Virus record (IMG/VR): IMGVR_UViG_3300043436_000632
Location: 1 to 24,357 of that record
Reading direction: 5' to 3' (one strand)
Source: a virus
Length of the DNA stretch: 24,357 nucleotides
Shown: positions 18,122 through 23,567 of the stretch, in pieces
Position numbering within the stretch: the stretch's first letter is position 1
How the letters are laid out: each line of letters opens with the position of its first letter
Notes under the pieces: model-generated
What the model saw: the letters and a program-made list of their open reading frames with translations, nothing else
Databases searched by the model: none
What the model was told of the DNA's origin: nothing
Made by a program: the position numbers and the translations under genes

Positions 18122-18380
18122 AGTTATATATCGCAAACTCGGAAGGGAACAAGCGCACGGCATTGCCGAAAGTGATGGTGTAGTTTATATTGACTCACGG
18201 CTAAAGGGCAAGAAGCAGCTTGAAATTTTGTTGCACGAATGCTTACACATCCTGAACCCAATGGATGACGAAGATGCAATTATTGAGAAAAGCGTAACTT
18301 TATGTAAGGTTCTTTGGCAACAAGGATACCGAATGGTAGATAATTCAAACGATACACCATTACAAGATGGTTCTAAATAG
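18111..18380 (+). CDS. Small HExxH zinc metalloprotein
   Basis: This 89-residue protein contains LLHECLHIL (His42-Glu43-x-x-His46), a zinc metallopeptidase motif, followed by an acidic segment (NPMDDEDAIIEKS) and LWQQGYRMVDN, the pattern of very small phage metallopeptidases related in layout to SprT/ImmA-type minimal domains. The N-terminus has a strand (IKVIYRK) and VVYIDSRL. Candidate third ligand is one of the acidic residues after the motif. Role and substrate are unknown. It is the last gene of the late block, with two terminators following. Confidence 0.72.
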   Translation: MKIKVIYRKLGREQAHGIAESDGVVYIDSRLKGKKQLEILLHECLHILNPMDDEDAIIEKSVTLCKVLWQQGYRMVDNSNDTPLQDGSK

Positions 18381-18400
18381 TTGTTCGTTCATAGTTCCTC

Positions 18401-18424
18401 ACCCCTAAAAAGGTGGGGTTTTTT
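18401..18424 (+). terminator. Intrinsic terminator T1 of the late block
   Basis: ACCCC pairs with GGGGT across a 9-nt loop, and a run of T follows, 20 nt after the stop of the HExxH gene. Confidence 0.7.
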
Positions 18425-21726: not shown

Positions 21727-21778
21727 AACAACCCCTCGTTGGGCGATAACGTTAAGCGCAAATTTAAAACTTACAACT

Positions 21779-21975: not shown

Positions 21976-21983
21976 TAACTTCG
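21976..21983 (+). promoter_or_regulatory. -7-like element (TAACTTCG) before the structured leader
   Basis: TAACTTCG differs by one base from TAnnTTTG. Its normal start point would be near 21989, the first base of the predicted leader hairpin. No -33 TTG is seen at normal spacing. Confidence 0.35.
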
Positions 21984-21988
21984 CACAA

Positions 21989-22072
21989 AGGATGTAGGAT
22001 ATCCTAACACAAACTTATTGGCTCAAAGCTGAAACCCTAATCCTACTGGGGTGGATGCCGAGAGCCTTTTTT
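21989..22072 (+). ncRNA. Structured 5' leader of the replication gene; kissing-hairpin candidate
   Basis: Hairpin A is AGGAT (21989-21993) with ATCCT (22001-22005), and its whole 7-nt loop is GTAGGAT (21994-22000). Hairpin B is ACCC (22034-22037) with GGGT (22049-22052), and its loop contains ATCCTAC (22040-22046), a perfect complement of loop A. An outer stem GGCTC (22020-22024) with GAGCC (22062-22066) encloses hairpin B and is followed by six T (22067-22072), 6 nt before the ATG at 22079. This could be a riboswitch-like or attenuator element. I do not recognise a known class. The DNA form also contains a perfect palindrome (21995-22006). Confidence 0.45.
21995..22006. promoter_or_regulatory. 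12-bp perfect palindrome, possible operator
   Basis: TAGGATATCCTA is fully self-complementary. A further inverted half (ATCCTAC) lies at 22040-22046 and a direct half (AGGAT) at 21989-21993. It lies near the predicted transcription start, a natural repressor site, just downstream of an HTH gene. Confidence 0.4.
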
Positions 22073-22078
22073 ATTTTT

Positions 22079-22729
22079 ATGGCTAAAGACCCAGCGGTGT
22101 TATTTTACACAAGCGATTTTCTTAGTGGCACTTTTACAATGGATAATGAACAGGTTGGTAAATACATTAGACTTTTATGCTTACAACATCAAAAAGGAAA
22201 ATTAACTGAAAAGGATATGCTAAGCATATGTAAAGCATATGATAATGAGATATGGGATAAATTTAAAGTTGAAGATGGTTTATACTACAATGATAGAATG
22301 TATAATGAAACCATTAGAAGGCAAAAATTTAGTGAAAGTAGGCGAAATAATGCTAAATCACCTAAAAAAGAAAGCACTTGCGAAGCATATGCTAAGCATA
22401 TGGAAACTGAAACTGAAAATAGAACTATAACTATAAATGAAAATATAAATATAGATTTTGATTGGTTTTGGAATGATTATGATAAAAAGGTAGGTGATAA
22501 GCAAAAGCTAAAAAAGAAGTGGAATAAATTAACCGATGAAGAAAGACAAAATGCAATGAATTATCTTGACCTTTACAAGCAATCAGTACCAGACAAACAA
22601 TTCCGTAAAAACCCAGAAACCTTTTTAAACAACAAATCTTGGAACGATGAAATCATTAACCGAAGTATTACCCCAATCCATAAACTCTCTTACGCTGAAC
22701 GAGAAGCTAATGCACTTAGAAATCTATAA
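22079..22729 (+). CDS. Replisome organizer / replication initiation protein
   Basis: The 216-residue protein begins MAKDPAVLFYTSDFLSGTFT and continues DNEQVGKYIRLLCLQHQKGK, the pattern of DUF1376/phage replisome organizer N-termini (winged-helix DNA binding), then IWDKFKVEDGLYYNDRMYNE. The C-terminal half (FDWFWNDYDKKVGDKQKLKK, KNPETFLNNKSW) is the YPKK..GK..A..W / ATYLNxxRW segment of phage replication proteins that recruit helicase machinery. I prefer ATG 22079 over the in-frame 22055, which lies inside the leader stem. Four origin-like repeats are inside the gene, and its 3' end overlaps the next gene by 83 nt. Confidence 0.8.
   Translation: MAKDPAVLFYTSDFLSGTFTMDNEQVGKYIRLLCLQHQKGKLTEKDMLSICKAYDNEIWDKFKVEDGLYYNDRMYNETIRRQKFSESRRNNAKSPKKESTCEAYAKHMETETENRTITINENINIDFDWFWNDYDKKVGDKQKLKKKWNKLTDEERQNAMNYLDLYKQSVPDKQFRKNPETFLNNKSWNDEIINRSITPIHKLSYAEREANALRNL
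22222..22241. repeat. Iteron pair 1 (AAGCATATG x2, 11-bp phased)
   Basis: Exact AAGCATATG at 22222-22230 and 22233-22241, with starts 11 bp apart. ATATGC and GCATAT flank a central TAA at 22215-22229, making an inverted repeat with the first copy. Confidence 0.8.
22383..22402. repeat. Iteron pair 2 (AAGCATATG x2, 11-bp phased)
   Basis: Exact AAGCATATG at 22383-22391 and 22394-22402, with starts 11 bp apart. CATATGC-TAA-GCATATG forms 7-bp inverted arms within the pair. The A-rich stretch begins at once downstream. Confidence 0.8.
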
Positions 22730-23511: not shown

Positions 23512-23567
23512 TCATAGCAATCTGGGAACTATTAAAACAACTTTATTACAAAATAATAAATCGATGA
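23493..23567 (+). CDS. 24-residue TM microprotein
   Basis: MFKIFIIIAIWELLKQLYYK, then IINR. It is a hydrophobic helix with basic end. It starts inside the preceding ORF and ends in ATGA with the NUMOD-like gene (ATG 23564). The tiny size makes certainty low, but the ATGA link supports translation. Confidence 0.45.
   Translation: MFKIFIIIAIWELLKQLYYKIINR

Follow-up and report, generated by a model that had tools for sequence, protein, structure and literature searches.

A kissing-hairpin pseudoknot in the messenger leader of uncultured phages that probably infect Bacteroidota

A short interval in front of a replication gene of an uncultured phage raises two questions: does it encode a structured RNA, and what would such an RNA do for the gene behind it? 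The window analysed here is the whole IMG/VR record of 24,357 bases, which carries genes for capsid, replication and recombination. The gene in question (22079-22729, plus strand) encodes a DUF1376-like, primosomal replication-initiation protein of 216 aa; its product matches primosomal and replication initiation families of PHROG (E values of 6e-11 to 7e-11) and, weakly and below the cut-off, DUF1376 of Pfam, and a search of GenBank phages with the protein yielded distant replication initiators only. Its distant relatives are found mostly within Bacteroidota genomes. Bacteroidota initiate translation without Shine-Dalgarno sequences, and to our knowledge the control of early genes in their phages is poorly understood.

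Anatomy of the leader

All features of the leader lie on the plus strand. The promoter box TAACTTCG (21976-21983) fits the consensus TAnnTTTG. Since this box occupies positions -12 to -5 in flavobacteria (PMC9723704; also given as TANNTTTG/TAHHTTTG in PMC6847099), transcription is predicted to start at about 21988, at the base of hairpin A, in line with the preliminary description, in which a -7-like element was proposed to start the RNA there. The cis location assumed in that description is likewise borne out, as the RNA lies between the -7 box and the first start codon.

Hairpin A (21989-22005) consists of a 5-bp stem, AGGAU/AUCCU (DNA AGGAT, 21989-21993, and ATCCT, 22001-22005), and a 7-nt loop, GUAGGAU (GTAGGAT, 21994-22000). 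A single-stranded linker, AACACAAACUUAUU (22006-22019), leads to the rod of hairpin B (22020-22066), composed of the outer stem P1, GGCUC/GAGCC (22020-22024/22062-22066), a near-symmetric 9x9 internal region that contains UGAA/GGAU and the 2-bp stem P2, GC/GC (22028-22029/22057-22058), the 6-bp stem P3, ACCCUA/UGGGGU (DNA ACCCTA/TGGGGT; 22034-22039/22047-22052), and a loop, AUCCUAC (DNA ATCCTAC; 22040-22046), that is the exact reverse complement of loop A. The stems had been described as short, of 4-5 bp, which holds for hairpin A and the outer stem (5 bp each) and not for P3, with its 6 bp; P2 is additional. The full complementarity of the two loops can be read directly from the sequence, as originally noted, and since their 7-bp kissing helix (21994-22000 with 22040-22046) crosses P1, the leader is a pseudoknot. 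A U-rich spacer, UUUUUUAUUUUU (DNA tract TTTTTTATTTTT; 22067-22078), separates P1 from the ATG at 22079. Spacer and start codon are unpaired, and the base of P1 lies at -13.

The nested part of the leader is the predicted minimum-energy fold of the single sequence, with both hairpins formed (-24.4 kcal/mol, z -2.1; hairpin B -18.8 kcal/mol), and the loop-loop duplex would contribute about -7.8 kcal/mol more, a value computed as for a free duplex. Folded by ViennaRNA alone, hairpin A has a loop of 3 nt, since G.U and U-A pairs are possible within the 7 nt. A strict search for the whole motif finds a single occurrence in the window, and none in 60 dinucleotide shuffles of that sequence. The single-sequence structure is only modestly above chance, and covariation is the decisive evidence.

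Relatives of the leader and their covariation

A scan with the downstream protein yielded 80 viral loci, whose leaders were examined upstream of their AUG, and the set was enlarged by two pattern scans and two further protein scans. The leaders of loci found by protein have the same architecture with different sequences, and their loop pairs are always complementary (GUAGGAU/AUCCUAC, GUCGGAU/AUCCGAC, GUUGCAG/CUGCAAC, AUGCGAC/GUCGCAU, AUGGUAC/GUACCAU). Reversed-sequence decoys gave 569 real against 533 decoy matches for the bare motif, and 409 against 2 once promoter and T-tract filters were applied. Because reversal preserves complementarity, such decoys test the bare motif poorly; dinucleotide shuffles and a model blind to kissing were therefore taken as controls instead. 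Alignment A1 had been picked with a descriptor that requires kissing, so that its covariation alone is circular for the kissing helix.

Covariance model R1 has only P1 and P3 as paired columns, leaving hairpin A and the kissing pairs unmodelled, with the caveat that its training sequences had been collected with kissing required. Searched against the window, R1 retrieved the leader as its only copy (96 bits, E 2e-17). Its 134 matches in 160 loci comprise 86 distinct sequences, in 85 of which loop B has a perfect complement of at least 6 nt upstream, with about two dozen loop pairs represented. The sole exception, L215, is a match truncated close to the end of its contig; the complement is present in its relative L227. 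Sequence families missed by the first descriptor were also recovered, among them those with CCGUAC/GUACGG, GUGCAA/UUGCAC and GGUUGCGG/CCGCAACC. All such figures count sequences and not events, as IMG/VR contigs are not independent.

Compensatory changes in homologues, to which the preliminary description had pointed as a check on the structure, are present in alignment A3, which comprises 50 distinct leaders whose loci were retrieved through homology to another replication gene, and which were not selected for kissing. This alignment contains 248 two-sided changes, against 74 in shuffles, with 94.6% of cells paired (68.6% in shuffles) and a covariation score of 0.63 (0.18 in shuffles); sliding the partners by one column lowers pairing to 44-55%. 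In the kissing helix, two-sided changes affect 5 of the 7 pairs and one-sided changes are limited to one end pair, with 8 G-U cells. Longer loops put eight rows out of register, and only for this reason do these rows appear unpaired. The stem of hairpin A, which lies outside the model, shows two-sided changes in three of four counted pairs, with 95% of cells paired, and covariation extends to nearly all pairs of P1 and P3, so that compensatory changes are found in all helices. Such evidence makes it almost certain that the structure, a kissing pseudoknot of hairpins A and B, is real. Because G.U pairs occur in P1 and P3, the element would be one of RNA rather than of DNA. A DNA-level reading, as an origin hairpin or recombination site, is disfavoured by the retention of these G.U pairs and by the orientation of the unit from promoter to AUG. 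As a clean natural example of an intramolecular kissing helix kept by repeated compensatory change, the leader may help to benchmark covariation methods that take pseudoknots into account.

The anatomy of the family was obtained from an automatic parse of 63 representatives, in which a few P1 calls are wrong. Stem A is mostly 5-8 bp, the linker mostly 11-15 nt (consensus AACUUAUU), P1 mostly 5 bp, P3 mostly 6-7 bp and the kissing helix 6-9 bp long. The internal region of hairpin B is typically 9x9 or 8x8 and differs between families (UGAA/GGAU, GGCG/CAAA, AUUGA/UUUGG), and relatives mostly have 9-12 nt between P1 and the AUG. Constancy across the family is confined to linker, spacer and architecture, and the linker is conserved also in the protein-homology loci, for which no DNA pattern was imposed. 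After P1, T is almost invariable at +3 to +5, and +1 and +2 also accept A, C or G, with a non-T at +2 in 21 and at +1 in 12 of the 63 representatives (a few P1 ends being misparsed). U is found at -3 in 56/63 and at -6 in 59/63 leaders, with paired bases at -13. Nearly all leaders share the -7 box, with the caveat that the box was both a requirement of the collecting descriptor and a part of the model. The box lies 1-5 nt 5' of hairpin A in most members and 9-16 nt away in some (L060, L314, L364). A strong -33 element was looked for across the leaders and none was seen; F. johnsoniae promoters likewise have no strong -33 element (PMC6847099). Some loop pairs occur with the A and B roles swapped (GUCGCAU/AUGCGAC, GUCGGAU/AUCCGAC and GUACGAG/CUCGUAC; L263, L121, L196 and L144 versus L303, L045 and L101).

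Genes behind the leader, occurrence and known likenesses

The first gene behind the leader is variable and belongs to at least six unrelated kinds. These include replication initiators (DUF1376-like; Lin1244-type, MKSN...; DnaD/DnaA-like, MAIFRKVHV...; and others), NUMOD4-HNH and other HNH endonucleases, two kinds of DNA methyltransferase, and a GIY-YIG-like ORF, read as such from its sequence and without family match. In five protein-homology loci (L045, L053, L059, L070, L071), ORFs are inserted between leader and replication gene; the leader remains at the front, and its spacing to the new AUG, which the search did not impose, is unchanged. Seven loci (L209, L212, L300, L351, L353, L355, L267) carry two leaders, always with different loops, but are too few in number and too closely related for orthogonality to be proven. 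The second leader of L209 is found with an HNH gene between the terminase large subunit and portal genes, and in L351 a leader and HNH gene sit between two genes whose homologues in the window, at 23564 and 23777, are neighbours. NUMOD4-HNH genes with their own promoter and a kissing leader with the loop pair GUGAGAU/AUCUCAC are seen at L351:2844-3468, L300:4610-4712 and L209:7430-8002, an arrangement that looks as if gene and leader travel together. Another HNH gene (L209, 1340-1834) starts 6 nt past the previous ORF, leaving no space for a leader.

The leader had been said to fit no riboswitch class, and indeed it fits no Rfam family: Rfam 15 gave no match in the window at the curated threshold, chance-level matches near the leader and none on it at E values up to 10, and an unrelated tRNA only among 15 diverse relatives. 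Among GenBank phage records no relative of the leader was found (no match or chance matches). Searches of 395 Bacteroidota genomes with model and pattern found no leader, a weak absence given that the model scored few candidates per genome; two pattern matches were without visible leader fold. No description was found in the literature on structured RNAs by matching of main-text terms, which one may have escaped. The fold is thus apparently undescribed, absent from Rfam and common in uncultured viruses probably infecting Bacteroidota. Promoter type and the Bacteroidota distribution of the gene's distant relatives suggest this host group.

The leader resembles other structured phage leaders and shows the full defining features of none. 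Like HK022 putL/putR, it is a cis RNA of about 70-100 nt with two stem-loops near a phage promoter, upstream of early genes; unlike put, it has a kissing helix joining the loops, abuts the AUG and is associated with Bacteroidota-type hosts. The T4 gene 32 leader also places a pseudoknot 5' of a phage replication gene, which is autoregulated by its own product, whereas the downstream gene is not constant here. Complementary 7-nt kissing loops that diversify by compensatory change are known from ColE1 RNA I and RNA II, which are two separate RNAs, whereas both loops here belong to one leader. In loop-loop riboswitches (purine, guanidine-II) two hairpins of a cis leader dock through their loops; here no conserved ligand pocket and no Rfam match were found. 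Hairpins of T4-type endonuclease genes (I-TevI, mobE, segB; seg43(25)) share an RNA structure beside the start codon of a phage endonuclease, the closest being that of seg43(25), whose stem ends just before the initiation site, upstream of the RBS (PMC2988022). These hairpins are simple, mostly RBS-sequestering, lack a pseudoknot and are not shared with replication initiators, whereas the start region here, spacer and AUG, is unpaired.

Possible roles in expression

It is very probable, judging from sequence comparison, that the leader is a conserved cis-acting 5' element of phages of Bacteroidota-type hosts with a cis role on expression, and the retention of the fold across about two dozen loop pairs suggests that phage messages may begin with a control element of a new kind. 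How it might act is a more tentative matter. In F. johnsoniae, ribosomes initiate better where the mRNA is unpaired from -20 to +20 and has A at -3, -6, -12 and -13, and domain 4 of bS1 is placed at -12 to -15 (PMC6847099). With U at -3 and -6 and with P1 at -13, the leaders may gate or limit translation, and the constant distance from leader to AUG, kept despite unrelated first genes, implicates translation initiation. The reading we favour, and hold as a possibility somewhat short of even, is that the folded leader gates ribosome entry and shields the 5' end of the mRNA. Hairpin A would close and protect the extreme 5' end of the message, and the base of P1, 9-12 nt before the AUG in the family, would occupy the site where flavobacterial ribosomes need unpaired, A-rich mRNA, so that the folded leader would set or gate translation of whichever gene comes next. 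Acting on both initiation and survival of the message, it would be expected to give low basal, structure-limited translation, and might be employed for genes of critical dose or timing, such as replication initiators, homing-type endonucleases and methyltransferases, along with which it could travel. The preliminary suggestion that the structure hides the start is only partly upheld: start codon and spacer are unpaired, so that a ribosome would be blocked by bulk or by P1 and not by direct sequestration, and the structure does reach -13, within the ribosome footprint. Against the translational gate it can also be said that the U tract is equally expected of an intrinsic terminator, and that nearly identical traces in the sequence would be left by a shape-based 5' stabiliser, a processive antitermination RNA or a protein-binding site.

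A termination-readthrough switch, as proposed earlier, is not upheld. No conserved, mutually exclusive alternative pairing was seen in alignments or single folds, in a search that was not exhaustive. The lack of alternative pairing, the variable internal region and the acceptance of any complementary loops speak for a single required shape and against a sensing switch, and the leader may best be pictured as a single-state, shape-based element. Transcription attenuation proper, with P1 and the U tract forming an intrinsic terminator before the first gene, the kissing helix tuning termination frequency and a terminated product of about 90 nt that may itself be a small RNA, is unlikely, but carries some weight. 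GC-rich P1 lies directly 5' of a U-rich stretch with T almost always at +3 to +5, hairpin B is stable (-18.8 kcal/mol), and the U tract is retained although U at -3 and -6 disfavours flavobacterial translation (PMC6847099). The first two bases after P1, where the U tract of a terminator should begin at once, are nevertheless often not T, as counted above; the 5-bp P1 gives way to a 9x9 internal region, a terminator scan makes no call, the constant AUG spacing is left unaccounted for, and no antiterminator pairing was seen. The copy between terminase and portal genes further argues against a strong terminator, which would be polar there.

Stabilisation of the mRNA 5' end alone, through a pseudoknot at +1 that blocks 5'-end-dependent decay with no direct effect on ribosomes, is doubtful. 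Hairpin A begins at the predicted +1 in most leaders, and the acceptance of any complementary loop sequence implies that shape and stability matter rather than sequence; such a role needs neither constant AUG spacing nor a conserved linker and U-rich spacer, and fits poorly with the 9-16 nt that precede hairpin A in L060, L314 and L364. Opposite in sign to the translational gate, and rather doubtful as well, is a portable, Shine-Dalgarno-independent initiation device whose pseudoknot docks on the 30S platform and recruits Bacteroidota ribosomes to the AUG some 12 nt downstream. If true, this would be a bacterial counterpart of viral IRES elements, moved between genes as a cassette by phages.

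A put-like RNA for processive antitermination, whose nascent fold would bind RNA polymerase for readthrough of the early operon, is improbable. PutL, too, follows closely on its promoter and forms unexpected tertiary pairing (PMC9378689); the two stem-loops just behind the promoter may be likened to it, and the leader stands at the start of phage early-type operons and is portable among phages. Yet it is also carried by single-gene HNH endonuclease units, constant AUG spacing would be unnecessary, and no downstream terminators were identified. It appears decidedly improbable that the leader is a riboswitch or the binding site of a repressor, sensing a ligand or protein through the internal region of hairpin B: this region is near-symmetric and often UGAA/GGAU, compatible with tandem G.A pairs, but changes between families with no sequence-conserved ligand-binding core, Rfam gives no match, and the unrelated first genes argue against autoregulation by their products. 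Very improbable is an incompatibility code in trans, like that of plasmid RNA I and RNA II, with same-loop leaders kissing across phages or genes: loop pairs are many, some role-swapped (GUCGCAU/AUGCGAC both ways), and differ in all seven two-leader loci, but these loci are non-independent, two random leaders would usually differ anyway, and intramolecular pairing should win.

A compact, abundant and covarying leader before replication initiators and mobile endonucleases offers a testable handle on early expression in Bacteroidota phages, and might be usable as an expression part for Bacteroidota.

Two other non-coding elements were noted in the window. In contrast to the leader, an ordinary-looking terminator (CCTCACCCCTAAAAAGGTGGGG followed by TTTTTT; 18397-18418) follows an ORF ending at 18380. 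A second conserved non-coding stretch, AACCCCUCGUUGGGCGAUAACGUUAAGCGCAAAUUUAAAAC (21728-21768), precedes the kissing leader by about 220 nt; it stands before varying small genes, and its exact 20-mer recurs in over 50 other loci. Its variants (CCCCUCGUU and CCCCCACGUU) keep CCC-GGG and CGUU-AACG arms, which would cross as a small pseudoknot.
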